This document shows, in pieces, positions 10,841-50,662 of a stretch of 64,000 nt of DNA; the first letter of the stretch is position 1, and every line of letters begins with the position of its first letter. The stretch comes from Streptomyces sp. CB01580. GTDB taxonomy: Bacteria; Actinomycetota; Actinomycetes; Streptomycetales; Streptomycetaceae. The position numbers and the translations under genes were made by a program. A model generated the notes under the pieces. That model did not search any database. It saw only the letters and a program-made list of their open reading frames with translations, and was not told where the DNA came from. Location: NCBI RefSeq assembly GCF_001905795.1, contig NZ_LIXJ01000003.1:1-64000 (forward strand), given 5' to 3'.

Positions 10841-11215
10841 CAGATAGGCGGCGCCCTCGGCCACCGCGCGTACGCCCGCGATGAGCTCCTCGGGTTCGCC
10901 CGACTTGATCAGGAAGCCGGTGGCGCCGCCCCCGAGCGCCTGGAGGATGTAGTCGTCCTCGCCGAAGGTCGTGAGCATCACGACTCCGGTCTCCGGTACG
11001 GTGCGCCGGATCTCGGCCGCCGCCTCGATGCCGTTCGTCCCCGGCATCCGGATGTCGAGCACGGCCACGGCCGGGCGGTGGCGGCGGACCAGCTCCACGG
11101 CCTCGTGCCCGTCGCCCGCCTCGGCCACGACGTCGATCTCCGGATCGATGGACAGCACGGAGCGCACGCCCTTGCGGATCATCGCTTCGTCGTCGGCGAT
11201 CAGCACCCGGATCAT
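10520..11215 (-). CDS. NarL/LuxR-family response regulator
   Basis: The 231-aa protein has a receiver domain (MIRVLIADDEAMIRKG; phospho-acceptor Asp in VAVLDIRMPG near residue 54; conserved Lys in FLIKSGEP) and a C-terminal LuxR helix-turn-helix (about 160-215; LTARERDVLALLGSGLSNGQ). It pairs with the histidine kinase upstream at 11376-12884, 160 bp away on the same strand. The intervening DNA is G/T-rich low complexity. Its 3' end lies antisense to the PAP2 tail. Confidence 0.9.
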   Translation of the reverse strand: MIRVLIADDEAMIRKGVRSVLSIDPEIDVVAEAGDGHEAVELVRRHRPAVAVLDIRMPGTNGIEAAAEIRRTVPETGVVMLTTFGEDDYILQALGGGATGFLIKSGEPEELIAGVRAVAEGAAYLSPKVAARVVAHLSETGAGALAGRRSAARERVRALTARERDVLALLGSGLSNGQIARRLHVVEGTVKAHVSSILARLGVDNRAAAAVVAHEAGIVAPVPLPEPSPER

Positions 11216-11375
11216 CGGCCGGTCACCGTCCTTTCCGGGTGGGGCGTGTGTCGTGCGTGCGGTGTGTGCGGTGCATGTGCTGCGCAGGGTGGGTGGGCCG
11301 GGTGTGGCGGGCGAGCGCGGTGCACGGGCCGGGTTGCTCGTGGTGGGTGCGCCGCGTGCGGCGCGTGTGCCGGGT

Positions 11376-12884
11376 TCATGGTGTCAGGGCCTCCTTCGAC
11401 ATCAGCCTTCCGGCGCGGAAGCAGAGCCGGTACGCGTCCCCGGACCGGTCGTCGAAGCGGTCCGCCGTCATCGCGTAGTACTCGCACGTGATGCCGCTCC
11501 CCCGTGGTGGTTCCCATCCCGCCTGCCGTTGGGTGGTCTCGCGCTCGGGCAGCAGGCGGCGCACCGCGTCCCGTTCCTGTCCCACCTTCAGCCGGGCGTA
11601 GTCGCCCGGGTCCAGTACGGACTGCTGGGCCGAGCGGATGTCCCAGGCCATGAGGGCGGCACTCAGCATCGCCCAGGCCACCAGCGGCAGCACGATCGCG
11701 GTCACCAGCGCCCGCCGGACCCGGCTGCGGGCGCGGCGGTGCTCCTGGGGCAGCGTCGGGGCCGACTCGAAGGGCGCCGTCGCGGGGCGGCGGGCGGACG
11801 GGGTGTGCGGCAGCCGGGCGGTGACCTCGAAGCCGTCCTCGCGGGGACCGTACGCGAAGGTGCCGCCCGCCAGGCGTACCCGTTCGTCCAGCCCGATCAG
11901 GCCCCGCCCGGTGCCCGGCACGGCCTCCGGGCCGCCCCGCGCGGGCGAGGGGCCGTTCCGTACGCGGACCACGGTCTCCTCGGCGGTGTACGTCACCCGT
12001 ACGCCCACCGGGGCCAGCGGTGCGTGCTTGGCGGCGTTGGTCAGGGCCTCCTGGACGACGCGGTGGGCGGCCCGGGCCGCGGCCGGCGGCACCCCGGCGC
12101 CGTCGGCGTCGCCGTCGATCCGCAGGTCGACCGTGAGACCGACGGCCGCGGCGTCGTCGACCAGGCGGGGGATGCCGGTACCGGATGCCGGAGGCGGTTC
12201 GTCGTCCGTCTCCTCCCGCAGGATGCCGATCACCTCGCCGAGCCGTTCCACCGATGCCGCCGCCCGTGCCCGGATCTCACCGGCCGCCGCCCGCTGGGCC
12301 TCGTCCAGACCGGGCGCGAGCTTGAGCGCGCCCGCCGACAGGGCGATGAGATTCAGGTCGTGGCCGAGGACATCGTGCATGTCCTGGGCGATCCGGGCCC
12401 GTTCCCGGGACCGCGCCTGCTCGGCGACGAGCCGCTGTTCGCGTTCCAGGCGGTCGGCCCGTTCCCAGCCCGCCCGGACGAGCTCCTGGTACTGGCGCCA
12501 GAACCGCCCGGCGAACCAGGGCAGCATCGCCGCCACCGACACCACGGCGACGTAGCGCCCAGCCATGAGCAGCCAGGACGGCACCAGCGCCACCGCGACG
12601 ACCCCGCCCGCGACGACCGCGACGAGCACGAGGAGCGTGGGTCCGGTCCTCCCCGGTTCCCGACCGGCGAAGAAGGCCGCCACGGCGGCGGGCAGGGCCC
12701 ACCACATGCTGACGGCGCTCAGTCCGACGCAGACCGCCGCGGTGACGGTCAGCAGACCGCCCAGGGCGAGGGAGGGCGGGGTCCATGGGGCAGGGGCACG
12801 TCGGGACCGCGGGACAACGGCGGGCGGGGTTTCCCTGCCCGGGGCGTGGCCCCCGGCATCCCGCCGGCCCGCGTCACCGGTCAT
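11376..12884 (-). CDS. Two-component sensor histidine kinase with extra C-terminal domain
   Basis: The 502-aa kinase has several N-terminal membrane segments (about residues 35-125), a HisKA_3 dimerisation domain (RARIAQDMHDVLGHDLN, phospho-His near 169), and an ATPase domain with N-box VVQEALTNAAKHA (about 280) and G-box GTGRGLIGLDERV. Unusually, a further membrane helix (about 395-415) and an extracytoplasmic segment (about 425-502; YARLKVGQERDAVRRLLP) follow, resembling a BamE/SmpA-like module. I took ATG 12884; GTG 12896 is possible. It should phosphorylate the adjacent NarL-type regulator. The stimulus is unknown. Confidence 0.85.
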   Translation of the reverse strand: MTGDAGRRDAGGHAPGRETPPAVVPRSRRAPAPWTPPSLALGGLLTVTAAVCVGLSAVSMWWALPAAVAAFFAGREPGRTGPTLLVLVAVVAGGVVAVALVPSWLLMAGRYVAVVSVAAMLPWFAGRFWRQYQELVRAGWERADRLEREQRLVAEQARSRERARIAQDMHDVLGHDLNLIALSAGALKLAPGLDEAQRAAAGEIRARAAASVERLGEVIGILREETDDEPPPASGTGIPRLVDDAAAVGLTVDLRIDGDADGAGVPPAAARAAHRVVQEALTNAAKHAPLAPVGVRVTYTAEETVVRVRNGPSPARGGPEAVPGTGRGLIGLDERVRLAGGTFAYGPREDGFEVTARLPHTPSARRPATAPFESAPTLPQEHRRARSRVRRALVTAIVLPLVAWAMLSAALMAWDIRSAQQSVLDPGDYARLKVGQERDAVRRLLPERETTQRQAGWEPPRGSGITCEYYAMTADRFDDRSGDAYRLCFRAGRLMSKEALTP

Positions 12885-13198
12885 CACTTTCTTCACCCGC
12901 ACGACGGTACGCAGCCGGGCGGGTGCCCCGGCACTGCCGAAAGTCACCCTTGTCACGCGCACGGCCCCGGCCACCGCGAGCCGAGCTTCGCCCCGCCCCG
13001 CCCTCGTGAGCCGCCTGCCGTCCCCGGCGCTCCGGGAACCGTCACCCGCACGGGCGCGCACGGGTGGTCGCGGCGGAACGCGCGGCGCAAGGTCGATTCT
13101 GTTCCGCGGGCCCGTACGGCCCGTCCGGCCTGCTCATCGTGTGCGGTCCGCTCATTTCGTGTGCGGTCCGCCCGTCCCGCTCCGGCCAAGGAGTTCTC

Positions 13199-13633
13199 AT
13201 GGCACACTCAGCGTCCGCGTCCGGCCCGGCCCCTAGCGTGGATCACGGGGAAACCAGCCCCTGGGCGACCGGCGGGACCATGTTCGCCGGTGTCCTGCTC
13301 CTCGTCGACGGTGTCTTCGGAGTGATCAAAGGCATCACGGGCATCGCCTCCGACCAGGTGTACACGCGCATCAACAAGTACACGTTCAGGTTCGACGTGA
13401 CCGCGTGGGGCTGGATCCACCTCGTCCTCGGCATCGTGCTCGCGATCATCGGCTGGGGCATTCTCAGAGGGGCGATGTGGGCGCGCGCCGCGGGTGTGGC
13501 GCTCGCCGCCGTCAGCCTGATCGTCAACTTCGCGTGGCTTCCGTACCAGCCGCTCTGGGCGATCATCTCCATCGCCATCGACACATTCGTCATCTGGGCC
13601 CTGTGCACGGACCGGTCGAAGGTGCTCGCCTGA
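13199..13633 (+). CDS. Small integral membrane protein (DUF7144-like)
   Basis: This 144-aa protein has four predicted membrane helices (starting near residues 25, 65, 95 and 115), with the family-like segments GTMFAGVLLLVDGVFGVIKGI and WGWIHLVLGIVLAIIGWGIL. ATG 13199 follows AAGGAG at ideal spacing. Function is not known; such proteins are often general stress-regulated in Streptomyces. The upstream gap holds two copies of GTGTGCGGTCCGC (13138-13175) of unknown meaning. Confidence 0.8.
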   Translation: MAHSASASGPAPSVDHGETSPWATGGTMFAGVLLLVDGVFGVIKGITGIASDQVYTRINKYTFRFDVTAWGWIHLVLGIVLAIIGWGILRGAMWARAAGVALAAVSLIVNFAWLPYQPLWAIISIAIDTFVIWALCTDRSKVLA

Positions 13634-13646
13634 CCGCACCCCGCCC

Positions 13647-13706
13647 GAGCGGAGACCCCCGAGCGGAGACCCCCGAGCGGAGACCCCCGAGCGGAGACCC
13701 CCGAGC
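13647..13706. repeat. 14-bp tandem repeat
   Basis: GAGCGGAGACCCCC occurs four times in perfect register from 13647, followed by a partial copy. It sits just after a stop codon and encodes nothing. Confidence 0.85.
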
Positions 13707-13804
13707 GGGGTGGGGCGAGCGGGGACCGTCGGGCGGGGACGGCCGGATAGCCGGGAGGCGTACGCGTCCCGGCCATTGTCAGTGGCTCGGGTCACACTGG
13801 ATTC

Positions 13805-14029
13805 ATGTGCCGCAGTATCAAGACGCTACGACCGCCCGCCCTGCCCGAAGAGGCCACCGAGGAGGAGATCCGAGCCGCCGCACTGCAATTCGTACGCAAG
13901 GTGTCCGGCTTCCGCGCCCCGGCGGCGCACAACCGGGAGGTCTTCGACCGGGCCGTCGACGAGATCGCGGAGGCGACCGCCGAGCTGCTGGACGGCCTGG
14001 AGATACGGGGCGCCGTCAGGACGCCGTAG
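13805..14029 (+). CDS. DUF2277-family small protein
   Basis: The 74-aa product begins MCRSIKTLRPP and contains RKVSGFRAPAAHNREVFDRA, the conserved core of DUF2277. The family is widespread in bacteria and its role is unknown. Its last 14 bases overlap the convergent DedA gene. Confidence 0.85.
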   Translation: MCRSIKTLRPPALPEEATEEEIRAAALQFVRKVSGFRAPAAHNREVFDRAVDEIAEATAELLDGLEIRGAVRTP

Positions 14030-14681
14030 TCGCCGCCGCGGCTGCCTCCGCGACCGGTCGGCGCATGAAGTACGCGGCCAGGGCGCCCGCCACGAACAGG
14101 GCGAGGACCGAGACGGCCGTGCCCACCCAGGTCGCGCCGAGCCACTGCCCACCGAAGTAGCCGAGCCCCACGCTGTAACCGGCCCAGGCCGCTCCCGCCA
14201 GGGCGGACCAGGGCAGGAACTCCTTCACCTTGCGGTGCGCGGCGCCCGCGCCCAGCGAGACGACCGACCGGCCGGCCGGTGCGAAGCGCGCGACGATGAC
14301 GAGGATGCCGCCGCCCCGGGCGAGGGCGCCGCCCAGGCGTTCCTGGGCAGAGGTGAGGCGGCGGGAGCGGGCGATGGCCCGGTCCAGACGTTCGCCGCCG
14401 CGCCAGGCCAGCCGGTAGGCGACGAGGTCGCCGAGGACCGAGGCGGCGGTCGCGCAGAGGATCAGTGCGAGGAGTGACGGGACCTCGGGCACCTGCTCCG
14501 CCGCCCGCGCCGCGGTGGCGGCGGAGGCCACGGTCGTCGAGCCCGCGGCGGCCGCGGTGGCGGCGGTGATGACCAGGACCCCACTGGGCAGCACGGGCAG
14601 GAAGACGTCCAGCAGCACTGAGACGGCGACCACCGCGTATATCCAGGGGCTGCCGGTCAACGCAGCCACACTCTCAAGCAA
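14016..14681 (-). CDS. DedA/SNARE-associated-family membrane protein
   Basis: The 221-aa protein is highly hydrophobic, with the DedA pattern: an N-terminal re-entrant segment (YAVVAVSVLLDVFLPVLPSG), a central glycine-arginine region (RFAPAGRSVVSLGAGAAHRK) and paired C-terminal helices. Family members are proposed half-transporters or lipid scramblases at the inner membrane. The acidic/Arg residues near 150 (RFAPAGR) match the functional arginine of the family. It is convergent with DUF2277. Substrate is unknown. Confidence 0.8.
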   Translation of the reverse strand: MLESVAALTGSPWIYAVVAVSVLLDVFLPVLPSGVLVITAATAAAAGSTTVASAATAARAAEQVPEVPSLLALILCATAASVLGDLVAYRLAWRGGERLDRAIARSRRLTSAQERLGGALARGGGILVIVARFAPAGRSVVSLGAGAAHRKVKEFLPWSALAGAAWAGYSVGLGYFGGQWLGATWVGTAVSVLALFVAGALAAYFMRRPVAEAAAAATTAS

Positions 14682-14918
14682 GTACTACTCCCCGATCCGG
14701 AACAACGCCGCGACGTCGCAGGGGAGCGGCAGGAGCGGCACGGCCAGCTGTACAGCGTACGCCCGACGCCCATCCGATGATCCATAAATATGGACGATGT
14801 TGGGAAGCTCACGTACGCATGGAAAACAGGAGGAACGGGTTCCAGGCGTACGTGAGCGGTGCGCGCGGCGAACGGTGAACGAAAGCCGGGCGAGCGGGCC
14901 CGTGGGCGCCTGTGGGAC

Positions 14919-14963
14919 CCGTGGGCCGCTGCTCGTGGTCGGTCTGTGAGCAGCGGCCCACGG
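14919..14963 (-). terminator. 16-bp perfect-stem terminator for doxX
   Basis: CCGTGGGCCGCTGCTC pairs perfectly with GAGCAGCGGCCCACGG across a 13-nt loop, 16 bp beyond the DoxX stop. A second inverted repeat (GCTCACGTACGC near 14808 with its complement near 14857) lies further on. Confidence 0.7.
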
Positions 14964-14978
14964 AACCCTTCCGGATTC

Positions 14979-15422
14979 TCAGGCGCTTACCGCCGGGACC
15001 TGCTCGCGTGCGCGGCCCTCGCCGCGCTCCGTGTCGTCGCGGCGGAACAGCCGGTCCAGGGACAGTGCCCCGGGGCCGCTGAAGACCAGCAGCAGGAAGA
15101 CCCAGCAGAAGATGGCCGCGGCCTCGCCGCCGTTCTGTATCGGGAACAGGCCGTCGGCCTGGTGGACCGTGAAGTACGCGTACGCCATGGATCCGGAGGA
15201 GACCAGGGCGGCGATCCTGGTGCCCAGGCCGAGGGCCACCAGGCCGCCGCCGACCAGCTGGATGGCCGCCGCGTACCACTTGGGCCAGGTGCCGGCGGCT
15301 ACGGAGCTGTCGCCGAAGAGGCCGAAGAGCGCGGCCGCGCCGTGACAGGCGAAGAGGAGGCCGACGACGATCCGGAACAGGCCGAGGGCGTACGGATGGG
15401 CCTGATTCAGGCGTGTGTGCAT
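14979..15422 (-). CDS. DoxX-family membrane protein
   Basis: The 147-aa protein has four predicted membrane helices and the DoxX features ALGLFRIVVGLLFACHGAAALF, then YAAAIQLVGGGLVALGLGTR. DoxX proteins are small membrane partners of redox or thiol-stress systems in actinobacteria, but the exact activity here is unknown. It stands alone with its own promoter-like sequence (15471-15501) and a strong downstream terminator. The C-terminal 25 residues are charged and cytoplasmic. Confidence 0.85.
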   Translation of the reverse strand: MHTRLNQAHPYALGLFRIVVGLLFACHGAAALFGLFGDSSVAAGTWPKWYAAAIQLVGGGLVALGLGTRIAALVSSGSMAYAYFTVHQADGLFPIQNGGEAAAIFCWVFLLLVFSGPGALSLDRLFRRDDTERGEGRAREQVPAVSA

Positions 15423-15470
15423 GGGGGGCTCCTTCGGTCGGGGTGGGGACGTGAACCGATCGGGCGATCC

Positions 15471-15501
15471 AGATTAGGGAGACCTCACCAATGCTTGCAA
15501 G
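15471..15501 (-). promoter_or_regulatory. Probable doxX promoter with palindromic operator
   Basis: On the minus strand TTGCAA and TAATCT lie 18 bp apart, a reasonable -35/-10 pair about 50 bp before the DoxX start. The -35 sits in the palindrome CTTGCAAG, as in sites of MarR/HxlR-type repressors. An overlapping TTAGGGAGACCTCACCAA weakly resembles an actinobacterial iron box (about 12 of 19 positions). Confidence 0.4.
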
Positions 15502-16432
15502 TTCAACATTATGTCGACTGGCCGAAACTCGATCCACGCCGTCCGGTCGGACTTCGACCGGATGCCGCTTCCATCTGCGCCGCTTCCGGTCGACCGCTTG
15601 GCCTGAACCAATGACGGCGCAGCTTTCCGGCCATGTGCGGTATGTGACGTAAGTCGGTCCCCCGGGGCGTGGCGTGCCGGATCCGTGCTGGTCGGTATGG
15701 GGGATTTACGCCGTGGCGGCGACTCGGCGACGTCCGGCCAGGGCGCCGTCGTGTCCGGATCCGGTCGAAGCGGGAGCCGGTCCTCGGCCGGAAGCTCCCG
15801 GGTCGGCGCTCTCGGGGGTGGGGTCGGCGTCGGGGGAGTGGGGGTCAGGCGTGTGCGGCGGGGCGGCCGGTGAAGGGATGCGTGCTCAGAGGTGTCGCGG
15901 GGTGGCACGGGGTGCCTCTGTGGGGGCGTGGGGGCCTTGCCGGTGGGCCGATGCCGGGCGCTCGGCATCCGGCCCGGTCGTCCGGTGGCCGGGGTTCGCC
16001 GCCCGATATCCGGCGCCCGTCACGCCTGCCGATGGTCGCCGCGATCGTCGGTGGCGCGGTGTCGCGCCGCGCGCTTCGCTCGGGGGCGCGTGGAGCCGAG
16101 TCGTTGAACGGGTGTGCGAACCGCGTTCCGTGGGGGGCTTCGCGCTCGTCCGGCGCGCTTCGTCGCCGACCCGCGCCGGACGGCGCCGGGCCCTGTCTGC
16201 GCGGTGGCTCCGCTGATCACCGGCGGTCGTCGTAGTCGACCGAAAACACGCCGGTGTCTTCGGGTGCCTCGGCGCCGCCCGTGTCCCTCGGAGTGTCGGC
16301 ACCTTCTCGGTGCGTCCGTACAGGGAGGGCCCGAGAGCCGGCCCGGCGTGGGCGTGGTCGATTCACGCGTGATCGATTCACGGGGCGGGGCCGGGGCGCG
16401 TGGCCGGTCCGGGGCGAGGGGGTGACGCGGAA
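15502..16432. other. Non-coding stretch of about 930 bases
   Basis: Long frames exist on both strands, but all are Arg/Pro/Ser-rich without recognisable domains or ribosome sites. I see no gene, RNA or repeat family here. Confidence 0.45.
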
Positions 16433-16462
16433 GCCCCGCCCGGCTTTGCGCTCGGGCGGGGC
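16433..16462 (-). terminator. Terminator hairpin after secreted HNH gene
   Basis: GCCCCGCCCG pairs with CGGGCGGGGC around a 10-nt loop, 75 bp downstream of the nuclease stop codon. Confidence 0.6.
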
Positions 16463-16537
16463 AGTTCGTTCGTTCTGTGTCGCGGTCGGCGGTCGTGTCC
16501 GGTCCGGTGCCCGTCGGGGTCGGCGGGCCGGAGGTGC

Positions 16538-17182
16538 TCAGCAGCCGTTCAGGATGCCCTGCAGTGCGCTCTTCTCGGCCGAGTCGACGCTCAGGTCGTA
16601 GTAGTGCTTCACGTGCACCCAGGCGCGTGCGTAGGTGCAGCGGTACGAGGTGCTCGGGGGAAGCCAGTTGGCCGGGTCCTTGTCGCCCTTGGCCTGGTTG
16701 ACGTTGTCCGTGACCGCGATGAGCTGAGGTCGCGTCAAGTCGTTGGCGAATGCCTGTCGTTGAGCCGTTGTCCAGCTGCTGGCACCCGACCGCCACGCTT
16801 CGGCGAGCGGCACCATGTGGTCGATGTCCAGATCGGAGGCGGCGGTCCAGGTGGCGCCGTCGTACTCCGAGTACCAGGTGCCGCTGACCGCCGCACAGCT
16901 GGAGTCCTGCTGCACGTTCGTGCCGTCGCGCTTCAGTACGACCTCGCGGGTGTTGCAGGTGCCGGACTGTGTGATCCAGTGCGGGAACTTGGACCGGCTG
17001 TAGCCGTCCGACGACCCTTCGGCCGCGACGGTGAGCTGACTCAGATACGTACGTGCGGTCGATGCGGAGACCGGGGTGGGCATGGCCGCCTGGGCGGCAG
17101 GGGCGTTGAGCAGCCCGGTCGTTGCGGCGAGGGCTGCGGATGCTGCGGCGACGGCGAGGCGACGCGCGTAGACACCTGACAT
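16538..17182 (-). CDS. Secreted HNH-family endonuclease
   Basis: The 214-aa protein has a clear Sec signal peptide (MSGVYARRLAVAAASAALAA... cleaving near AQAA, residue 32) and an HNH/GmrSD-C-terminal-like nuclease domain: LDIDHMVPLAEAW with the metal-binding His and Asp (about residue 120), then FANDLTRPQLIAVTDNVNQA and the final KHYYDLSVDSAE. Four cysteines (NTREV and SSCAA regions, SYRCTY, C-terminal GC) could form disulfides. Such extracellular nucleases occur in many Streptomyces and probably degrade environmental DNA. ATG 17182 is preceded by AAGGGAG. Confidence 0.85.
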   Translation of the reverse strand: MSGVYARRLAVAAASAALAATTGLLNAPAAQAAMPTPVSASTARTYLSQLTVAAEGSSDGYSRSKFPHWITQSGTCNTREVVLKRDGTNVQQDSSCAAVSGTWYSEYDGATWTAASDLDIDHMVPLAEAWRSGASSWTTAQRQAFANDLTRPQLIAVTDNVNQAKGDKDPANWLPPSTSYRCTYARAWVHVKHYYDLSVDSAEKSALQGILNGC

Positions 17183-17460
17183 GCGAACTCCCTTGATGTG
17201 GGGGGACGTTGGACATGCGACCGGTCGGACCCGGTCATCGTGGCGGCGCCAGGTTTCCGTGGGGTGGGCGCCAGGTAACAGAGTGGCGACATGGGCACGT
17301 CACATCAAGGGGTCTGATGAACGGGACTGGAGCGCGGGGGGCGTGCGCACGTGTCTGCGCGGGATCGTGTGCTGACGCCACGACAAGTCGACCGGGAAGG
17401 AGAAGGGTTGATGGTCCGGGCGGCCCCGGGGGCGTCGGGCCCGGCCGTTAGGGTTGCGGC

Positions 17461-17808
17461 GTGCTGACCGCGACCGTGCTCGGCGGGCGGCGGGCGCTGG
17501 ACGAGTTGACGGCCCGGCGCGGGGAGGTGGAGGCGGGCATGGCGCTCGGGCTCTCCGATCGTGAGGCGAGGCTGGAGATCGCCCGGCCCGCGGCGGCGGA
17601 CGCGTTGCTCCCAGGGCTGGACCAGACGCGGACCGTCGGGCTCGTCACGCTCCCGGGCGCGTTCGTGGGCATGCTGCTGGGCGGTGCCTCACCGGTTCAG
17701 GCGGGTGCCGTGCAACTCCTCGTGCTGGTGGCGCTGATGGCGGTGCAGTCGGTCGCCGTCACGGTCGTACTCGAATTGGTCGCGCGCGGCCGGCTGCACC
17801 AGGACTGA
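17461..17808 (+). pseudogene. C-terminal fragment of a FetB-type (UPF0014) ABC permease
   Basis: The 115 residues match the second half of FetB/YbbM iron-export permeases: LDELTARRGEVEAGMALG followed by RTVGLVTLPGAFVGMLLGGASP. A full permease is about 250-260 aa; the N-terminal membrane helices are absent and the upstream 250 bp does not encode them, nor is a FetA ATPase adjacent. A GTG at 17461 with AGGG upstream could still allow expression of the fragment. I treat it as a truncated gene; loss by deletion is the simplest explanation. Confidence 0.65.
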
Positions 17809-18055
17809 GGGCCGTGCGGACAGCGAACAGCGAACAGTGAACGGCGGACGGCGGACGGCGGGCAGCGGGTAGCGGGTAGCGAGTAGTGGGGCAGCGGGCG
17901 GCCCCCCTGCGGCCGTGACCGTGGGCGTGGCCGGGCTGCGGGCGGTGGGTACGGGTGGCGGCCGGTGGCGGGCGCGTGCGCATATGCGCCCACAGGCGTA
18001 CGCACTCCCGCGTGCACGCGGGAGCGGGGCGTTGTGCGGTGGGAGCGCGCGGCGC

Positions 18056-18101
18056 GTGTCTTCGAAGTGCCGTCGCGTGGCAGGCGGCACTTCGAAGACA
18101 C
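18056..18101. terminator. 17-bp perfect hairpin, likely bidirectional terminator
   Basis: GTGTCTTCGAAGTGCCG pairs perfectly with CGGCACTTCGAAGACAC around 12 nt, 20 bp from the HAD stop. The preceding 17,809-18,055 holds only low-complexity repeats (GCGGACG, GCGGGTA units) and a perfect palindrome CTCCCGCGTGCACGCGGGAG at 18005. Confidence 0.6.
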
Positions 18102-18121
18102 GGCCTACGGGCGCGAGGCAG

Positions 18122-18790
18122 TCAGTTCGCGTCGATGTGCAGTCGGATCGAGCCGTCGGCCGACGCTTCCACCCGCAGCCGCGTCAGGTCCTCGACGTGC
18201 GCGTCGGGCGAGAGCGCCGCCGCCCGCGGGCCGATGCCCACGATGCGCATACCCGCTGCCCGGCCGGCCGCGATGCCCGCCTCGGAGTCCTCGAAGACGA
18301 TGCAGTCCGCCGGGGCGAAGCCCAGTTCGGCCGCGCCCTTGAGGAAGCCCTCGGGGTTCGGCTTGCTGGCTCCGACGCGCTCGGCGGTGACACGGACCGT
18401 CGGCATCCGCAGGCCGGAGGCCGCCATCCTCGTACGGGCCAGTGCCTCGTCGGCCGAGGTGACCAGGGCATGCGGAAGCGCGGCGATCGCGTCCATGAAG
18501 GCGGGCGCTCCGGCGACCGGGATGACGCCGTCGGTGTCGGCGGTCTCCTCGGCGAGCATCGCCCGGTTGTCCGCGTGGTTCTGTTCCATCGGGCGGTCCG
18601 GGAGAAGCACCGCCATGGTGGCGTGGCCCTGCCGTCCGTGAACCACCTTCAGTACGGCCTCCGGGTCGAGACCTTCGCGTGATGCCCAGCGCCGCCAGCA
18701 GCGTTCCACGACGGCGTCGGAGTTCACGAGGGTGCCGTCCATGTCCAGGAGCAACGCCTTAAAAACACCTATGGTCTCTGACCTGGGCAT
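18122..18790 (-). CDS. HAD-family sugar-phosphatase-like hydrolase
   Basis: The 222-aa protein has the HAD motif I DMDGT (nucleophile Asp near residue 16), motif II in ALVTSADEALA, a Lys in VGASKPNPEGFLKGA (motif III) and motif IV IVFEDSEAGI. The cap type and sequence resemble beta-phosphoglucomutase/glycerol-3-phosphatase-like phosphatases acting on small sugar phosphates. I chose ATG 18790 because GAGGA precedes it; an alternative ATG at 18835 would place the first 15 codons inside the phage attachment site. The gene is chromosomal, and the prophage now lies directly upstream, replacing whatever preceded it. Confidence 0.85.
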   Translation of the reverse strand: MPRSETIGVFKALLLDMDGTLVNSDAVVERCWRRWASREGLDPEAVLKVVHGRQGHATMAVLLPDRPMEQNHADNRAMLAEETADTDGVIPVAGAPAFMDAIAALPHALVTSADEALARTRMAASGLRMPTVRVTAERVGASKPNPEGFLKGAAELGFAPADCIVFEDSEAGIAAGRAAGMRIVGIGPRAAALSPDAHVEDLTRLRVEASADGSIRLHIDAN

Positions 18791-18809
18791 GGGGCCATCC
18801 TCTACGCGC

Positions 18810-18836
18810 GGCTTATTTGTTTCGACATGATACAAA
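18810..18836. repeat. attL of the prophage
   Basis: GGCT..TTTGTT...CA.GATACAAA is shared with 57131-57157 at 21 of 27 positions. TTTGT/ACAAA form inverted arms around a shared central CA (18826-18827), as expected for serine-integrase sites. One side is the 5' region of the HAD gene. Confidence 0.75.
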
Positions 18837-18840
18837 GGCA

Positions 18841-18869
18841 GGGCCCCGCAGGCGCAACCTGCGGGGCCC
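18841..18869 (-). terminator. Strong terminator between hemC and attL
   Basis: GGGCCCCGCAGG pairs perfectly with CCTGCGGGGCCC around CGCAA. It lies 75 bp after the hemC stop and 50 bp before the HAD start, shielding the host gene from phage cargo transcription. Confidence 0.75.
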
Positions 18870-18943
18870 TGAGTCTCACTGTGCAGGCTGCCCGCCTCCA
18901 GGGGCAGGTCTCGGTGCCGCTCCCGTTCGTCGAGGAGTGGGTG

Positions 18944-19918
18944 TCAGTGTGGGATGCCCTCGATGATGTCGCGGGCGCCCTGGCGCAGCAGCTCGGCGCA
19001 CACGCGGGAGCCGAGCACCGCCGGGTCGTTCATGGACTCGCCCCAGAAGTGCGCATGTACGAACTTGCTCCCGTCGCGGGAGAACACCATGCCGCGGAGA
19101 CTCAGTTGCCCATCGGGCTCCGTGATGCAGTGCCCGGCGATCGGCGAATTGCAGTGCCCCCGCAGGCCGTGCAGCATGACCCGCTCGGCGGTGATCTCCG
19201 TCATGGTCTTTTCGTGGTTGAGCTGCTGGAGCAGGTAGGCGACCGCGTCATCACTCTCCCGGCATTCGAGGCCGAGCGCACCCGCGCCGACAGCCGGCAG
19301 CATCTCGGCGGCCTCGAACACCTGCCGGGTCCGGTGGCTGAGGTCGAGCCGTTCGAGTCCCGCCCACGCGAGAACCATCGCGTCCAGCTTGTGATCCATC
19401 GGCTTGCGGCCGTCGAGCTTGTCGATACGTGTGCCGACCAGGCCGCGGACCCTGATCACGTTCAGATCGGGTCGCGTCCGGAGGATCTGTGCCTTGCGGC
19501 GTACCGCCGAGGTCGCCACAGAAGCGCCGGGCGGCAGATCGGCGAGCGTCTGCACATCAGACCCCTCGGGGACGACCAGGACGTCGCGAACGTCGTCGCG
19601 CGGGAGGTACGCGGCGAAGACCAGACCGCGCGGCATGGGCACGTCGCCGGGAACGTCCTTCATGCAGTGCACGGCCATGTCGACCTGTCCGCGCTGCAAC
19701 ATCTGGTCGATCTCGCGGACGAATAAGCCCTTCCCGCCCAGCTGGGCCAAGTCGCCCTGCCATTTGTCCGCCTCGGTGGTGACCGGAACGACGTCGATAT
19801 CGAGGTTGGGTTCGATCTTGCGAAGCAGTGCCGACACGTGGTCGACCTGGGCTAGGGCCAGCGGCGAACTGCGGGTACCGATGCGCAGCTTTCGGGCGGG
19901 AAAGTCGGTCGTGGTCAT
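18944..19918 (-). CDS. hemC: Divergent hydroxymethylbilane synthase (porphobilinogen deaminase) in prophage
   Basis: The 324-aa protein matches HemC along its length, the enzyme that condenses four porphobilinogens into hydroxymethylbilane in heme/corrin synthesis. Key residues are present: RIGTRSSPLALAQ near 12-24, GGKGLFVREID (61-71), catalytic Asp88 in AVHCMKDVP, Arg140-Arg141, Arg158/Arg164 in RVRGLVGTR, and the dipyrromethane cofactor Cys256 in GHCNSPIAG. Changes from the usual form are GAGAL in place of GQGAL (211-215) and RGLV in place of RGNV. It overlaps the Nudix stop by 4 bp (ATGA). Streptomyces keep a housekeeping hemC in a hem cluster, so this is a second, phage-located copy. It may supply tetrapyrrole or have a new role. 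Confidence 0.85.
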   Translation of the reverse strand: MTTTDFPARKLRIGTRSSPLALAQVDHVSALLRKIEPNLDIDVVPVTTEADKWQGDLAQLGGKGLFVREIDQMLQRGQVDMAVHCMKDVPGDVPMPRGLVFAAYLPRDDVRDVLVVPEGSDVQTLADLPPGASVATSAVRRKAQILRTRPDLNVIRVRGLVGTRIDKLDGRKPMDHKLDAMVLAWAGLERLDLSHRTRQVFEAAEMLPAVGAGALGLECRESDDAVAYLLQQLNHEKTMTEITAERVMLHGLRGHCNSPIAGHCITEPDGQLSLRGMVFSRDGSKFVHAHFWGESMNDPAVLGSRVCAELLRQGARDIIEGIPH

Positions 19919-20379
19919 AACGTCCCTTCTTTGGATTCACGGTAGACCGCGCTACCGGGGGTCTGGAGTGACCCCACGATGCGCGCGGCTATTGCGGGGT
20001 GCAGCAGCGATTCCGCATCGGTGCGGGTGGCCCAGCGCCACGCGTCGAGTTCGTCGCGCTGCAAGGTGATGTGGTCGGCGTCGGCCTGGTGGAGCACGGG
20101 ACCGGCGAACAGGAACGCCAGCCGGTCGCGGCGGCCGGGGCGCGTGGCTTGCAGCCATTCGACGGCGAACAGGTCGTGTTCCCGTATGTCGAGGTCGAGG
20201 CCGAGTTCTTCGCGTCCTTCCCGGCGGGCAGCATCGAGGGGTGATTCGTTCTGCTCGACGATGCCGCCGGGCAACTGCCACGGTCCGCCCTTGACCGGGT
20301 GGACGATCAGCAGGTTGTCACCCGGATTGGTGATCAGCACAGAGGCGGTCAGGGGATGACCGGGGGCCGGTGGCGACAT
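19915..20379 (-). CDS. Nudix hydrolase paired with hemC
   Basis: The 154-aa protein has a canonical Nudix box (about residues 38-60: GGIVEQNESPLDAARREGRE then ELGL), with the metal-binding REGREE core. It should cleave an X-diphosphate substrate; which one is not evident. AAAGGA lies about 9 nt before ATG 20379. Its stop overlaps the hemC start, so the two proteins are translationally coupled and probably act together. A 13-bp terminator (20433-20474) separates the pair from the upstream small-gene operon, so it probably has its own promoter in 20380-20432 or is read through. Confidence 0.85.
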   Translation of the reverse strand: MSPPAPGHPLTASVLITNPGDNLLIVHPVKGGPWQLPGGIVEQNESPLDAARREGREELGLDLDIREHDLFAVEWLQATRPGRRDRLAFLFAGPVLHQADADHITLQRDELDAWRWATRTDAESLLHPAIAARIVGSLQTPGSAVYRESKEGTL

Positions 20380-20432
20380 TGGCGCATTCCTTTGCGGGCC
20401 AAGGCTGAACGAGAGGGTGAATTCCGCATGCT

Positions 20433-20474
20433 CCCGCCCCTCCCGTGCGGTGGCACCAGCGCGGGAGGGGCGGG
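20433..20474 (-). terminator. Hairpin between the small-gene operon and Nudix-hemC
   Basis: CCCGCCCCTCCCG pairs perfectly with CGGGAGGGGCGGG across 16 nt. The stem sequence resembles those of the two hairpins that bracket the CRISPR array (22748 and 23082). Confidence 0.65.
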
Positions 20475-20530
20475 TCAGGCCCGCTCCGGCCTGGGGTCCC
20501 CACCGGGCTCGGAGCGGGAGTCTTGGATCT

Positions 20531-20740
20531 CTACGGGGCCTGCGTCACCAGGTCGGCGCAACACGGTCCGGTCCACACCTCGACGTCGAGGACGTGGGCG
20601 CCGAGCTGGTCGGGGATGACGCCGACGCGGACCGTGCCGGTGGTGAGGGGCGTCTTGCACCAGATGCAGGCGCGGCCGTTGGCCTGGTCCCACGTCAGCG
20701 TTCGCGGGTTGGGCAGCGGGCGCCTGGTCGGCGCGGTCAC
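20531..20740 (-). CDS. 69-aa Cys-rich small protein
   Basis: The protein has two Cys pairs, CIWC (about residues 25-28) and CC near the end (WTGPCCADLV), spaced like a zinc-binding knuckle. It starts with GTG 20740, overlapping the previous gene by 4 bp (GTGA). It is last in a four-gene operon downstream of the XRE-TPR regulator. Such small proteins accompany XRE-TPR regulators in Streptomyces accessory DNA; the function is unknown. Confidence 0.65.
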   Translation of the reverse strand: MTAPTRRPLPNPRTLTWDQANGRACIWCKTPLTTGTVRVGVIPDQLGAHVLDVEVWTGPCCADLVTQAP

Positions 20741-20922
20741 GGCTGCTCGTCGTACGGGCGGAGACCGCGTTGCTCCCGGCACGGGTTGCACGCGTACAAC
20801 TGCCGACCCGGGCCAGAGCCCTGTTCGATGATGTCGACCAGGACCGCGGTGCCGGACGGGCCCTTGTGCCAGTGGCACCAGCCAGGGCCGGGCGGCGCGG
20901 GCGGACTCGACTGCGCGGTCAC
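20737..20922 (-). CDS. 61-aa Cys/His-rich small protein
   Basis: The start is GTG 20922, overlapping the upstream stop; the end overlaps the next gene. WCHWHKGPSG and YACNPCREQRG give a C-x-H/C-x2-C pattern that could bind zinc. It is not recognised beyond that. Confidence 0.65.
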   Translation of the reverse strand: MTAQSSPPAPPGPGWCHWHKGPSGTAVLVDIIEQGSGPGRQLYACNPCREQRGLRPYDEQP

Positions 20923-21077
20923 TGCTGCCCACCCTTGCACCGGTCGCACTGGCAGGCCGGGAATTCATGCTTCGTAGGCAGTTCCTCGACCGGGGATACC
21001 TCGGCCTTCGGGCGGACGACGCGCGTCGTCCGCCCGTGCCGGTCGACCTCGTACACCTTGAGTGTCATTGCCGACAT
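20919..21077 (-). CDS. 52-aa small protein with CxCxxC tail
   Basis: MSAMTLKVYEVDRHGRTTRV begins a short basic/beta-rich domain ending FPACQCDRCKGGQQ, a possible metal-binding tail. The start overlaps the previous gene's stop as TGATG and the end overlaps the next by 4 bp. Function is unknown. Confidence 0.65.
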   Translation of the reverse strand: MSAMTLKVYEVDRHGRTTRVVRPKAEVSPVEELPTKHEFPACQCDRCKGGQQ

Positions 21078-21286
21078 CAGGCCACCACGAGAGCGGGGCC
21101 GCTGAGGAGCGAGGTCAGGGTGTCGCGGAGAGCTTCGGCCTCCGACCGAGACAGGACGAGCGGCACTTCGGCCTGCAACTCGTCCAGGTCGTACAGCGCC
21201 ACCGGAACGCGCACTTCGCCCGTACTCGGATCGCTGTGCGGCATCGCGGCGCGCTGTGGCGAGGCGTGCCAGGACGTGACGGACAT
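21077..21286 (-). CDS. 69-aa small protein, first of the operon
   Basis: ATG 21286 follows AGGAGG at 8 nt. The predicted strand-helix protein (VRVPVALYDLDELQAEVPLV, then SRSEAEALRDTL) lacks cysteines. It leads the operon that starts just after the XRE-TPR gene and its operator-like repeats. Confidence 0.65.
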   Translation of the reverse strand: MSVTSWHASPQRAAMPHSDPSTGEVRVPVALYDLDELQAEVPLVLSRSEAEALRDTLTSLLSGPALVVA

Positions 21287-21346
21287 GCAGGGGCCTCCTA
21301 CGTCGACCGGTTGGTGGGCGATCACGGTAGAGGGCCCGCGGAGCAG

Positions 21347-21389
21347 GTAGGGGGACAGACTGTCCCCCCGTTCCAGGCTGTCCCCCTAC
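21347..21389. promoter_or_regulatory. Operator-like inverted repeats upstream of the small-gene operon
   Basis: GTAGGGGGACAG (21347) is followed at once by CTGTCCCCCC and again by CTGTCCCCCTAC (21378), so three copies of GGGGGACAG occur in 43 bp, forming nested palindromes. They lie between the XRE-TPR stop and the first small gene, a natural place for that regulator to bind. Confidence 0.5.
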
Positions 21390-22618
21390 CCAGTCGCAAT
21401 GCCGACGGCGGAAGCCAGGCGGCTGGCCTCTCCTCGAAGGGCCCGCGGGGCCGTACGCCACAAGTCCGATGCGACCGTGCGGGCGGAGGGGGTGAACGCC
21501 ACAGTCTCGGCTCCGATCTCGTGCGCGATTTTCATGACGTGCAGCGCCGCAGTTCGATCCCCGCGCTGAAGATGGCCGCGGGCAACTTCTACCCAGAGAC
21601 GGGCGCGGCGCTCGCGGGACGGCATGACGTCCGGGTCGATGTCGTCGGCGGCGCCGAGCGCGCGCCCGGCCTTCCGCAGGTCGACGTCGACGCTGACGGC
21701 GTGGAAGTCCACGTTCGCCCGACCGAAGACCGTGCTCGGGTGCACGTACGAGGTGGGCAGCGACTTCGCGACCTGGTCGCCCTTCTCCCAGTATCGCCAG
21801 GCGTCGCCCTCCCGCCCCTCGCGCGCGGCCGTCACCGCGGCGTGAAGCTGAAGCGCTCCGTAGATGCCGCGCCAGTCGTCCGGTGCGCCGTCGAGGTGGG
21901 GGCGGATCAGGTCGGCGGCCTCGTCGACGACGCGCAACGCTTCCTCCGGGTAGCTGGTTTCCCGGAGGATGTTGCCCATGTTCCAGGCGCTCGCCGCGAC
22001 GGCTGCGGGCTGATCGGCATCCTGCGCAGCCGACAGCGCGCGGTCGGCGACTACCCACGCCAGCTCGGCCGGGGCGATGTACGCGGTCGCCTGCCCGGTC
22101 AGGCGGTAGATGTCGGACAGCGCGACCAGGGCGGCTCTGCGCTCGTCGCCGTCGAGTGTGCGCGCGGCGGCCTCTCCGTCGCGGATCAGCGCCGGAAGCA
22201 GCGCTCCGACTTCGGTTCGGTTCCGGGCGGAGGTGTGCCACAGCCGCCACGTCTGATCCGACCGGCCCTGAAGCACAGCTGGAGAGACGGGCCCGGGGGA
22301 TGGAGTCGCGAGGCTCCGCGTCATGACTGCGGCCCAGATGTCCGGCATGACCGGGTGCGAGAGACGGCCGAGCGGTACCGGCTGCGCAGGGCCAGTATCG
22401 GTGCCAGTGATGACGGACAGGTCAGACACCTGAAGCGCGGCAGCCAACTTGAGCAGCAGGGTGTGGCTCCGGAGTTCCCGTTCGCCGGTCTCGATCTTCT
22501 TCAGCCAGTCGGGGCCCCGGCCGCACAGCTCCGCCAGGACAGGCCGGGTCATTCCTCGCGACTCGCGCAGGACTCGAATCCGCTCGCCAGTACTCAGATC
22601 TGATGCGGGGTGGTTCAT
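21386..22618 (-). CDS. XRE-family regulator with TPR-like C-terminus
   Basis: The 410-aa protein has an N-terminal XRE helix-turn-helix (about residues 12-66; LRESRGMTRPVLAELCGRGP, then WLKKIETGERELR) and a long helical region (about 150-400) with repeated Ala-rich helical pairs typical of TPR sensor domains. These large regulators are common in Streptomyces and often respond to small signals. It lies directly next to the CRISPR array and upstream of four small genes, which it probably controls. Confidence 0.85.
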   Translation of the reverse strand: MNHPASDLSTGERIRVLRESRGMTRPVLAELCGRGPDWLKKIETGERELRSHTLLLKLAAALQVSDLSVITGTDTGPAQPVPLGRLSHPVMPDIWAAVMTRSLATPSPGPVSPAVLQGRSDQTWRLWHTSARNRTEVGALLPALIRDGEAAARTLDGDERRAALVALSDIYRLTGQATAYIAPAELAWVVADRALSAAQDADQPAAVAASAWNMGNILRETSYPEEALRVVDEAADLIRPHLDGAPDDWRGIYGALQLHAAVTAAREGREGDAWRYWEKGDQVAKSLPTSYVHPSTVFGRANVDFHAVSVDVDLRKAGRALGAADDIDPDVMPSRERRARLWVEVARGHLQRGDRTAALHVMKIAHEIGAETVAFTPSARTVASDLWRTAPRALRGEASRLASAVGIATG

Positions 22619-22747
22619 AGTGCCCCTCCGTCTGCTGTCGGTCCCGTCAGCGTACGGGCGGGCGGCACATCAAGGGGAGGCCGAGCTGAAGCGGGACGTC
22701 CGACACCTGGCCGAGCACGGCGACGGCTGACCCCGGACGCACGAAAC

Positions 22748-22774
22748 CGCCCCTCCCGCAGTGCGGGAGGGGCG
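22748..22774 (-). terminator. Hairpin at the distal end of the CRISPR array
   Basis: CGCCCCTCCCGCA pairs perfectly with TGCGGGAGGGGCG with almost no loop. It overlaps the first bases of the degenerate terminal repeat and would stop array transcription on the minus strand. Confidence 0.7.
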
Positions 22775-22977
22775 AAACCCCGCGGGCGCAGGGACCATCG
22801 GCCATGGGTCATGACCTCGGAACACGACGTGGGAACACCCCCACGCGCGGGGACCATGCGGCCTGGCGGTGAGACTCGGCGTCCGCGTGGGGAACACCCC
22901 CGCGCGCGGGGACCAAATGTCCGCGACCTTCTGGGCGCCCGCACCGTAGGGAACACCCCCGCGCGCGCGGGGACCAT
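22772..22977 (-). CRISPR. Mini-CRISPR array, type I-E-like repeats, no cas genes
   Basis: Three clear repeats start at 22831 (27 nt), 22890 (27 nt) and 22949 (29 nt), reading GGGAACACCCCC...CGCGGGGACCA on the plus strand. A fourth, degenerate repeat (22772-22798, about 20 of 27 positions) lies exactly one 59-bp period away. The three spacers (22799-22830, 22858-22889, 22917-22948) are each 32 nt and mutually unrelated. The minus strand reads GGTCCCCGCGCGCGGGGG, the Streptomyces type I-E repeat family, so transcription should run towards lower coordinates, with the degenerate copy as the leader-distal end. The two internal repeats lack one GC of the stem. No cas gene is in the window. The array lies inside the prophage, between the lysis genes and the XRE-TPR regulator. 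Confidence 0.88.
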
Positions 22978-23081
22978 AGTTCCCGACCAGCAGCGATGCG
23001 CGTGCGAAGGCCGGGAATTCAGCACTTTCGCTGACCTCGACAATACCGGTACTGCCCGGAGCATGGCGGGAAGCAACGGAA
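22978..23081 (-). promoter_or_regulatory. Presumed CRISPR leader
   Basis: About 100 bp upstream of the first repeat (minus strand) contains no gene and is less GC-rich than its surroundings. A TTGTCG lies 17 bp from GAATTC as a weak promoter candidate. The repeat-proximal end reads ATCGCTGCTGGTCGGGAACT. Assignment rests on position only. Confidence 0.45.
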
Positions 23082-23112
23082 CGCCCCCTCCCGCAGCGTG
23101 CGGGAGGGGGCG
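23082..23112 (-). terminator. Terminator at the end of the late operon
   Basis: CGCCCCCTCCCGCA pairs perfectly with TGCGGGAGGGGGCG around GCG, immediately after the last lysis gene. It is nearly the same hairpin as at 22748, so the array sits between two like-sequence terminators. Confidence 0.75.
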
Positions 23113-23115
23113 GGG

Positions 23116-23463
23116 CTACTTCTGGGCGGCCTGCCATAGGGCTACGGCGAGGCTGATCACGCCGACCAGGGCGGCGAGGGAGGGGAGCGGCCAGCGGGCG
23201 CGCTCAAGGTCGGTGAGACGCTGGTCGTTGCGCTTCTGACGTTCGGTCTCGCCCCGGTCGAGTGTGTCGAGGCGGGCGTCGTGCGTGTCGAGCCGGGCGG
23301 CCTGGTCGTCGAGGCGCCGGTCGGTCTGGTCGTGGCGCTGCGCAAGCAGGTTCAGCGACCCGTTGACCGTGGCGAACCCCTCGGCGACCGTGCCGCGCAG
23401 CTCCGCGAGGGCGACCGCGACGGCCGGGTCCGCCGGGGTCGACGGGATCGGGTCGGGGCTCAC
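23116..23463 (-). CDS. XhlA-like holin-associated protein
   Basis: The 115-aa protein has a long amphipathic coiled coil (about residues 25-90; repeated LDTHDARLDTLDRGE) and one C-terminal membrane helix (PLPSLAALVGVISLAVALW). This architecture matches XhlA-type proteins that work with holins in host lysis. GTG 23463 overlaps the holin stop by 4 bp (GTGA). It is the last gene of the late operon. Confidence 0.7.
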   Translation of the reverse strand: MSPDPIPSTPADPAVAVALAELRGTVAEGFATVNGSLNLLAQRHDQTDRRLDDQAARLDTHDARLDTLDRGETERQKRNDQRLTDLERARWPLPSLAALVGVISLAVALWQAAQK

Positions 23464-23720
23464 TCTGCCCCCCCGTCGGGGTCGTCGGCCAGGCCGAGGC
23501 CGAGGCGGTCGAGCAACTGCTCGACTGCGGGGTGCGCCATGACGCGGGCTACGACGCCAGCCACTGCGGCGGCCGAGGCCGCGGCGGCGACCAGCCACGG
23601 CGCGGCCACGGCCAGGGCGTCGGAGTCGGCGACGACCGCGGCCAGGACGGGCAGAACCGCGGCGACCGCGGCGAGGGTCTGTATCCCGGTGCGGACGGCG
23701 CGCTTGGTGTGGGGCTTCAT
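23460..23720 (-). CDS. Putative holin
   Basis: The 86-aa protein has two hydrophobic segments (about residues 12-32 and 38-60), a basic N-terminus (MKPHTKRAVRTG) and an acidic C-terminus, and it follows the endolysin by 5 bp. It should form the membrane lesion that releases or activates the endolysin. Identification is by topology and position. Confidence 0.65.
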   Translation of the reverse strand: MKPHTKRAVRTGIQTLAAVAAVLPVLAAVVADSDALAVAAPWLVAAAASAAAVAGVVARVMAHPAVEQLLDRLGLGLADDPDGGAE

Positions 23721-23725
23721 CGGGC

Positions 23726-24694
23726 TCACTTCTTCCCGCCGTAGGCGATGGTGTGGAGGGCGGCCCACCCGCGGGGGCCTATCGCGGGGTCGTAGTGCAC
23801 GCCCCGGGCCCGGTAGACGGGGTGCGCCTGGTGGAAGCGGGCGACCGCGGCCTGTGTCGCGGGCCCGTACGTGTCCGCCTCCGGGATGCCCGCGGCCATG
23901 TACCCGGCGGCCTTGAGCGCGCGCTGGAGCCCGCGTGCCGAGGGGGTGCGGCGGCCCGGTGCGAGGCCGGCCGGAAAGGCGGGCGCCACGTACGGCTTCG
24001 GCTTCGGCGCGGTCGGCTTCGTCGGGGTCGGGGCGGGCCTCGTCGGCGCGGGCTCGTCCTCGTCGTTCGGGTTCCAGTTCGCCGGGTGCTTCAGCCGCTC
24101 GCCCACGTCGGCGCGCAGCTGGGCCATGGAGAAGCCGCGGGGATCGATCTTGTCGGCGCTCCACTCCAGGTGGCCGATCACCGACTTGGCGGTCCAGCCG
24201 TGCGCCCGGCACAGGGCGGCCTGTACGCGCACGATCGCGTCGTACTGCGCGGCGGGCCACGGGTCCTTGCCGTCGCCCAGGTTCTCGCACTCCCAGCCGT
24301 AGAAGCGGGCGTTGCCGTCGGACCCGTTCGCGTTGCCCTTCGTGGGCGGGGCCGGACGGCTGCCGTACGACTCGGCGACCACCTGGTCCAGGACGCGTGC
24401 GTCGCCGCCCCCGGCGTGGTTGGTGCGGCCCCAGCCGACCATGTGGACCCGGCCGTCCTTCGCGATCATTCCGTGGCAGAGCGGGCCCGGTAGAGAGGCG
24501 TACCCGGTCCGGCACATGGCCACGGTGGACGCGGTGCCCTTGGTGACCGTGTGGTGCACGATCGATCCATTGACCGGACCCCATGGGCCCTTCGAGTTGC
24601 GGCTGTGTGTCCGCCAGTTGCCGACCTCGACGACACGGACGCCCTCGGCGCGCAGCGCGGTGAGGATGGCGGCAGCGGACAGGGGTGTTGCCAT
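23726..24694 (-). CDS. Phage endolysin: amidase with peptidoglycan-binding domain
   Basis: The 322-aa lysin has an amidase_2/PGRP catalytic domain (about 15-215; IVHHTVTKGTAS, LCHGMIAKDG, SVIGHLEW giving the zinc His ligands), a Pro/Lys-rich linker (230-255) and a C-terminal peptidoglycan-binding domain (about 260-320; SARGLQRALKAAGYMAAGIP). It cleaves the amide bond between MurNAc and the stem peptide at lysis. Its catalytic half is nearly identical to the orphan amidase at 5915-6838, while the C-terminal domains differ completely. Confidence 0.9.
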   Translation of the reverse strand: MATPLSAAAILTALRAEGVRVVEVGNWRTHSRNSKGPWGPVNGSIVHHTVTKGTASTVAMCRTGYASLPGPLCHGMIAKDGRVHMVGWGRTNHAGGGDARVLDQVVAESYGSRPAPPTKGNANGSDGNARFYGWECENLGDGKDPWPAAQYDAIVRVQAALCRAHGWTAKSVIGHLEWSADKIDPRGFSMAQLRADVGERLKHPANWNPNDEDEPAPTRPAPTPTKPTAPKPKPYVAPAFPAGLAPGRRTPSARGLQRALKAAGYMAAGIPEADTYGPATQAAVARFHQAHPVYRARGVHYDPAIGPRGWAALHTIAYGGKK

Positions 24695-34087: not shown

Positions 34088-34539
34088 CAGGGTGCCCCTT
34101 CCAGTGCGGTGATCCGCGAGGCCAGTTCGGCAAGGATTCCTTGCACCGTGGTAGCGGTGCCGGGCCCGATCGCCGTAGCGGTGACCTGTGTTGCGGTGTG
34201 GACGTGATTGCCCGCGGCGGCGGTCGCCGCGGTGGTGCCGACCGCGAGCGATGACGTGCCCGCGCCGATCGCGGTCCGGGCGGCGGCAGCGTCCGCGGCG
34301 GTGAGTACGGAGCGGCCGACCGCCGAGGCGTCCGACACCTGCGCGGCCGTGTGCGTGTGTGTGGCGGGCGGGTAGGTGGTGGGCTTGCCGGTGATCTGCT
34401 CCCACGTGACCGGCTGCGCTTCACCGCCCGCCAGTTCGGCCAGTACCTCGCTGAGCGGGCGGCGTGTGCCGTTGGTGTCGACGGTGACGGCGGGGGCGGC
34501 GAGCGCGTCGCGGTGCTCGCCGCCCGGGGTGTCGATCAT
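34087..34539 (-). CDS. Head fibre/decoration-like protein
   Basis: The 150-aa protein has a short N-terminal region, a segment WEQITGKPTTYPPATHTHTA and a second AAAGNHVHTATQVTATAIGP, the repetitive His-Thr pattern seen in phage head-fibre and tail-fibre shafts. It sits directly beside the major capsid gene (stop/start overlap), favouring a capsid-attached fibre. Confidence 0.65.
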   Translation of the reverse strand: MIDTPGGEHRDALAAPAVTVDTNGTRRPLSEVLAELAGGEAQPVTWEQITGKPTTYPPATHTHTAAQVSDASAVGRSVLTAADAAAARTAIGAGTSSLAVGTTAATAAAGNHVHTATQVTATAIGPGTATTVQGILAELASRITALEGAP

Positions 34540-50640: not shown

Positions 50641-50662
50641 GGGGTGCTCCTGTCGGGTGGTG

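Follow-up and report, generated by a model that had tools for sequence, protein, structure and literature searches.

The archaeal viruses SPV1 and SPV2 carry virus-borne mini-arrays of clustered regularly interspaced short palindromic repeats (CRISPR) (PMC6858448), and bacterial and prophage mini-arrays have been reviewed (PMC11656645). In these two papers, viral mini-arrays are defined as lying in a viral genome without cas genes and as having one or two spacers, repeats identical to those of the host, spacers directed mostly against related viruses and crRNAs that host Cas proteins use. PMC6858448 also gives an archaeal-virus precedent for the use of mini-arrays against other elements, and PMC7099407 models their benefit for temperate phages. 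A further kind of phage-encoded repeats without cas genes, named RNA anti-CRISPRs (Racrs) or solitary repeat units, is described in PMC10651486. Here we analyzed a window of 64,000 nucleotides (nt) from Streptomyces sp. CB01580 (contig NZ_LIXJ01000003.1, positions 1 to 64,000), part of contig C23 of an 8.49-Mb genome, and found at positions 22772-22977 a CRISPR array of four type I-E repeats and three spacers of 32 nt, located in a prophage related to phage Piccadilly. We give an about even chance to the reading that this cas-less array is a guide cassette that would use the Cascade, Cas6e and Cas3 of the host against other mobile elements.

The copies of the repeat begin at 22772, 22831, 22890 and 22949, with a start-to-start spacing of 59, 59 and 59 nt. 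A first-pass annotation, made from the letters of the window alone, had described three good repeats and a degenerate terminal one at a strict 59-nt period, separated by three unrelated 32-nt spacers, and we could confirm all of these features. Based on comparison with the host arrays, the strand giving the CRISPR RNA (crRNA) is the minus strand, on which the leader block (22978-23081) is followed by repeat R0 (22949-22977, 29 nt), spacer 1 (22917-22948), R1 (22890-22916, 27 nt), spacer 2 (22858-22889), R2 (22831-22857, 27 nt), spacer 3 (22799-22830), the degenerate leader-distal R3 (22772-22798, 73% to the reference copy) and a hairpin. A 7-bp stem of -13.2 kcal/mol was found in both R0 and the host repeat; R1 and R2 are one GC unit shorter than R0 and fold with -9.4 and -7.6 kcal/mol, respectively, and in no repeat is the fold much more stable than in composition-matched shuffles. 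The array thus has the repeats of ~28-29 nt, the short palindromic stem, the constant spacing and the unrelated 32-33-nt spacers of type I-E arrays, except for the 27-nt length of its internal repeats. We also found that the exact 28-nt core of R0 occurs in only one of 392 Streptomyces genomes, once and in the window (exact matches only), which argues against the dispersed repeat family that the first-pass annotation had named as an alternative.

The CRISPR nature of the locus is further indicated by spacer 1, which recurs as a spacer in the array of another strain. By searching the 392 Streptomyces genomes with patterns in which every sixth position was free and up to 3 mismatches were allowed, we found that spacer 1 matched two genomes, its own and G201. 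The G201 match (27/32), the only non-self one in the 392 genomes, is embedded among the 70 repeat-like units of a type I-E array region, starts directly after a repeat and has the same crRNA strand as spacer 1. Shifting the register by 1-3 nt lowered the identity to 7-13/32, and the chance of a random place being in register is about 6e-6, assuming 100 spacers per genome. On this comparison, in which the sole non-self near-match is itself a type I-E spacer that agrees exactly in register and strand, spacer 1 is a genuine CRISPR spacer. Moreover, four of the five differences between the two spacers fall at third-codon positions of the frame YGAG[A/P]QKVAD, which makes it very likely that both come from homologous coding targets.

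As the first-pass annotation had proposed, we looked for a type I-E cas operon elsewhere in the genome and found one, plus two arrays. The only Cas7e match of the host lies on another contig than the window, in an operon with a Cas3-Cse1 fusion (1585 aa), Cse2, Cas5e and Cas6e. The fusion, together with a cas1 cut to its N-terminal part, was seen on contig C4 of the same genome (locus L010:6122-6805 and 10492-15249); the Cas1e match, the sole one in the genome, spans model positions 2-60 of 269 and is under the cut-off, and no frame was seen by eye to extend the truncated gene. According to PMC8782336, type I-E operons of Streptomycetaceae are commonly without cas1 and cas2. The host arrays are on C4 (31 repeats, 29 parsed spacers) and C12 (22 repeats, 21 spacers). 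The last ~17 nt on the leader side of the window array are similar to the leader end of the C4 array, while the C12 leader end is dissimilar. R0 differs from the C4 repeat at 3 of 29 positions, a similarity that supports the type I-E family assigned earlier, and the period is 61 in the host against 59 in the prophage. From the similarity of the repeats, we infer that the host Cas proteins are cognate to the prophage array.

The array sits between two hairpins in a cargo slot, with cell-lysis genes on one side and a helix-turn-helix (HTH) regulator gene on the other, which agrees with the location given in the first-pass annotation. A 13-bp perfect hairpin on the regulator side (22748-22774) is conserved in Piccadilly and a 14-bp perfect hairpin (23082-23112) closes the lysis side; the T-run rule identified neither of them as an intrinsic terminator. 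Identity to Piccadilly is 83% at 23100-23220 and 84% at 22683-22774, and the slot holds a 62-aa gene (gp23) in Piccadilly versus the array in the window prophage. Beyond the slot, 30 of 34 tblastn queries from 20900-57100 matched Piccadilly, in a set where two proteins were entered twice and some open reading frames (ORFs) are probably spurious. Eight virion and lysis proteins are 86-92% identical to those of Piccadilly, an isolated phage, and lower identities were found for the terminase (61%), the scaffold (56%), the integrase (48%) and the HTH regulator (37%). The tblastn search against Piccadilly gave no match for the major head protein (34539-35549), an 82-aa protein and one 64-aa ORF. 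Window proteins also matched the phage major head, portal, terminase, tape-measure and endolysin families. The prophage called by the first-pass annotation is therefore supported by Piccadilly synteny on both sides, but its att bounds were not recovered: no att sites were found, the longest exact direct repeat between 15000-22400 and 50000-64000 being 15 nt. Serine integrases need little shared att core, and since such an integrase is present, the missing repeat does not argue against a prophage. In line with the annotation, none of the 26 window proteins that we scanned, each with at least one of Pfam, PHROGs and PADLOC, was identified as a Cas protein. The IMG/VR provirus UViG_2862451198 has the same array and an identical HTH-gene stretch, and is not independent of the window prophage.

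On the minus strand, the genes around the slot encode the HTH regulator (21386-22618, 410 aa; HTH_31, phrog_5823), the 82-aa protein (21077-21325), which accompanies the HTH gene in most relatives, a phage protein without assigned function (23116-23598; phrog_5225) that is the last before the slot, and the endolysin (23726-24694; Amidase_2, phrog_880; 86% identical to Piccadilly). The serine integrase, with a Resolvase domain, is on the plus strand at 55364-57004. A porphobilinogen deaminase gene (18944-19918) lies close to the left end of the prophage, a protein on its left side (16538-17182) matched the C-terminal domain of the GmrSD restriction endonuclease, and a match to the gntR-DTE RNA family above its gathering score was seen at 779-910 on the minus strand.

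We then examined relatives of the two flanking genes. HTH relatives gave 59 loci (18 from IMG/VR and 41 from species genomes), that is 57 after removal of 2 duplicates, one of them being the window's twin. In 5 of these 57 loci the HTH gene has type I-E-like repeats on its 5' side at a distance of up to ~660 nt, namely in the window prophage, S. sulphureus, S. flavofungini, S. pinistramenti and S. longispororuber (a solitary repeat); locus L169, with one weak repeat match 3.5 kb away, was left out of this count. No such repeats were found in 74 endolysin-centered loci, the window prophage left out. The difference between the two sets (Fisher p = 0.014, or 0.032 without the window prophage) has to be read knowing that most probe repeats came from HTH loci and that the sets differ in phage content. 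A period scan independent of repeat sequence found repeat pairs in six endolysin loci, none of them type I-E-like by eye. HTH and endolysin relatives occurred together in seven distinct loci, two of which have an array: L016, the window's twin, and L028/L160 of S. sulphureus. The S. sulphureus prophage, more distant from the window prophage than the Piccadilly group, carries its own array of 4 repeats with 3 other spacers, in the same gene order and in opposite orientation, in a genome with Cas7e and 65 repeat-pattern matches (at most 2 mismatches, the prophage's own counted).

The repeat-bearing HTH loci of S. flavofungini, S. pinistramenti and S. longispororuber are not clearly phage, and in S. 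flavofungini cas6e, cas5e and cas7e are found a few kb away from the HTH cassette. In S. flavofungini (L215, G393:C5:306001-325000) and S. longispororuber (L216, G395:C53:1-20000), short runs of I-E repeats alternate every ~3-3.5 kb with small HTH cassettes made of either HTH_31/DUF5753 plus DUF6879 or an HTH relative of the window gene, as if cassettes had been inserted serially into CRISPR arrays. The HTH cassette of S. pinistramenti, between two arrays, contains a 132-aa ORF (L161:6881-7279) that on visual inspection resembled the N-terminal region of a serine recombinase and to which Pfam matched nothing. In S. laculatispora, which has the closest relative of the HTH gene among species genomes, an ORF that resembles a phage antirepressor by eye was seen where the array would be (L139:3634-5001). 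Finally, Streptomyces phage ZL12 (GQ919031.1) has one intergenic I-E-like repeat and two weaker hairpins at L015:3966-4100, a candidate solitary repeat unit.

The first-pass annotation had also suggested searching the spacers against phages and plasmids, and this gave no credible target. With blastn, spacers 1, 2 and 3 hit 13, 10 and 4 phage records, which we judged chance-level, and 73, 146 and 12 plasmid records, again at chance level (among the best 20 of 73 and the best 20 of 146 for spacers 1 and 2). The type I-E protospacer-adjacent motif (PAM) is of the AAG type. We inspected eight records of plasmid matches to spacer 1 and its G201 homologue and rejected them: they were 17-26/32 to spacer 1, had no common gene frame and no AAG-type PAM. 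The spacer 2 matches in seven non-self genomes were likewise put down to chance, with 25-26/32 against 26 for the best shuffle; six of them share one near-identical context, and the matches are preceded by GTG or GGG. Spacer 3 had no non-self match in the 392 Streptomyces genomes. An IMG/VR search that used a single codon-degenerate frame for each spacer recovered just the identical twin prophage. In a 1.58-Mb pool of fetched DNA that included Piccadilly, spacers 2 and 3 did not score above 20 shuffles each, and spacer 1 exceeded its 20 shuffles only in loci that the spacer searches themselves had fetched. The three S. sulphureus spacers did not exceed shuffles in this pool either; for the leader-proximal one, IMG/VR gave no target beyond the contig on which it lies, and the phage search gave no more than a match of 17 nt.

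In the proposed mechanism, whose steps beyond the DNA anatomy (transcription, processing, targeting and benefit to the phage) are predicted, the array would be transcribed from its leader side and cleaved at the repeat hairpins by the host Cas6e, whose own repeat has the three differences given above. Each predicted crRNA of ~61 nt would have the handle GUGUUCCC first and the spacer after it. The three crRNAs would load into the host Cascade, Cas3 would cut matching DNA of mobile elements entering the lysogen, and the phage would benefit from a lysogen that excludes them. Several observations favor this guide cassette: the regular array with its degenerate leader-distal repeat and C4-like leader end, the host interference genes in the same genome, the phage-conserved DNA on both sides of the array, the spacer held in common with the G201 array and the separate S. 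sulphureus array in the same gene order. Since cas1 is truncated in this genome, the spacers were probably acquired in another host.

Other results weigh against it. Searches of 50,697 phage records, 72,556 plasmid records (among the matches listed), IMG/VR and the 392 Streptomyces genomes gave no protospacer of any of the three spacers, and against Piccadilly and the other fetched loci none scored above shuffles, apart from spacer 1 in loci that the spacer searches had fetched. The repeats are not identical to those of the host, the internal hairpins of R1 and R2 are less stable than that of R0, and a sigma-70 scan found no sigma-70-like promoter for the array. The first-pass annotation had named absence of the period from related prophages as a refuting result, and this holds in part: with blastn of 22700-23120, five Piccadilly-group phages (ten records) match only the first 75 nt and are without the array, while the S. 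sulphureus prophage has its own. Our confidence stays at about one half because of the weaker internal hairpins, the non-identical repeat and the lack of targets found. The use of host Cascade to exclude phages, put forward by the first-pass annotation, has partial support: the cas-less prophage array and the host interference operon are in place, and no spacer target was found.

The main rival is that the prophage captured the array by recombination with a CRISPR locus of a host, and that it has since been decaying as a neutral passenger. The relatives of the HTH gene that adjoin chromosomal I-E repeats in S. flavofungini, S. pinistramenti and S. longispororuber, the shortened R1 and R2, the degenerate R3 and the absence of a spacer target would all fit such a remnant. 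However, the phage-conserved DNA at 22683-22774 separates the array from the HTH gene, so that the array was not simply dragged in with this gene; a second phage carries a separate array within the same order of genes, and a degenerate last repeat is usual in working arrays. We consider a remnant somewhat unlikely. We regard as clearly less probable a decoy function, in which repeat RNAs would bind the host Cas6e or Cas7e and blunt host immunity as Racrs do. A passage on the aeruginosa I-E system in PMC10651486, the differences from the host repeats and the two weaker hairpins speak for it, whereas Racrs are solitary repeats and the array has three full-length spacers, one of them common to a real array. 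In addition, no host spacer credibly matches the prophage (best 25/32), so that inhibition would have no evident use in this host.

Regulatory crRNAs, which would repress genes through partial matches to host or phage DNA without cutting, are known for other CRISPR systems, and nothing points to them in this array specifically; within the window, the cas locus and the C12 locus, full-length matching reached at best 19-22/32, as for shuffles, and we consider this explanation very improbable. Finally, palindromic repeats could arise by chance in GC-rich DNA, and the cores indeed fold no better than shuffles of equal composition. Nevertheless, the 26-nt repeat core (up to 3 mismatches) was found twice in the window versus never in 100 dinucleotide shuffles, the reversed sequence of 1.15 Mb of related loci gave 0 matches, and the in-register sharing of spacer 1 with another CRISPR array argues strongly against chance, to which we give almost no credence.

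If prophages deliver working guide arrays to Streptomycetaceae of this kind, with cas1 truncated or with cas1 and cas2 absent, their immunity could be refreshed by lysogeny instead of adaptation. Going further, in a doubtful extension of the guide-cassette reading, exchangeable guide cassettes would occupy a fixed cargo slot of Streptomyces temperate phages by the HTH regulator cassette, the same cassette would also lie inside chromosomal type I-E loci, and arrays would shuttle between host CRISPR loci and prophages, giving lysogens ready-made immunity. If so, such immunity would also reach hosts whose own genes for spacer acquisition have been lost.

We did not find a type I-E mini-array in a Streptomyces prophage among literature titles and abstract openings, a scope that leaves aside subscription papers and the supplementary tables of the Racr survey. 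The array is like chromosomal Streptomyces I-E arrays in its 29-nt repeat family, 32-nt spacers and C4-like leader end, and unlike those of the host in its shorter period, the differences in R0 and its prophage location. With Racrs it has in common prophage repeats without cas genes and a subtype that matches the host system, but it differs by its four repeats and three full-length spacers, one of which belongs also to a real array. The likeness to viral mini-arrays, as the cited papers describe them, covers other features: no cas gene found, an intergenic position, a leader-like end, few spacers, a host with a cognate interference system, and a second virus, the S. sulphureus prophage, with different spacers at the same position. 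It departs from them by having three spacers instead of one or two, by repeats that are not host-identical and by spacers without a match found in related viruses, and also as a bacterial type I-E array in an actinophage. Because of the excess spacers, the non-identical repeats and the absence of a related-virus target, we call it a variant: measured against these descriptions, the prophage array is a type I-E actinophage variant of the known kind of cas-less viral array.
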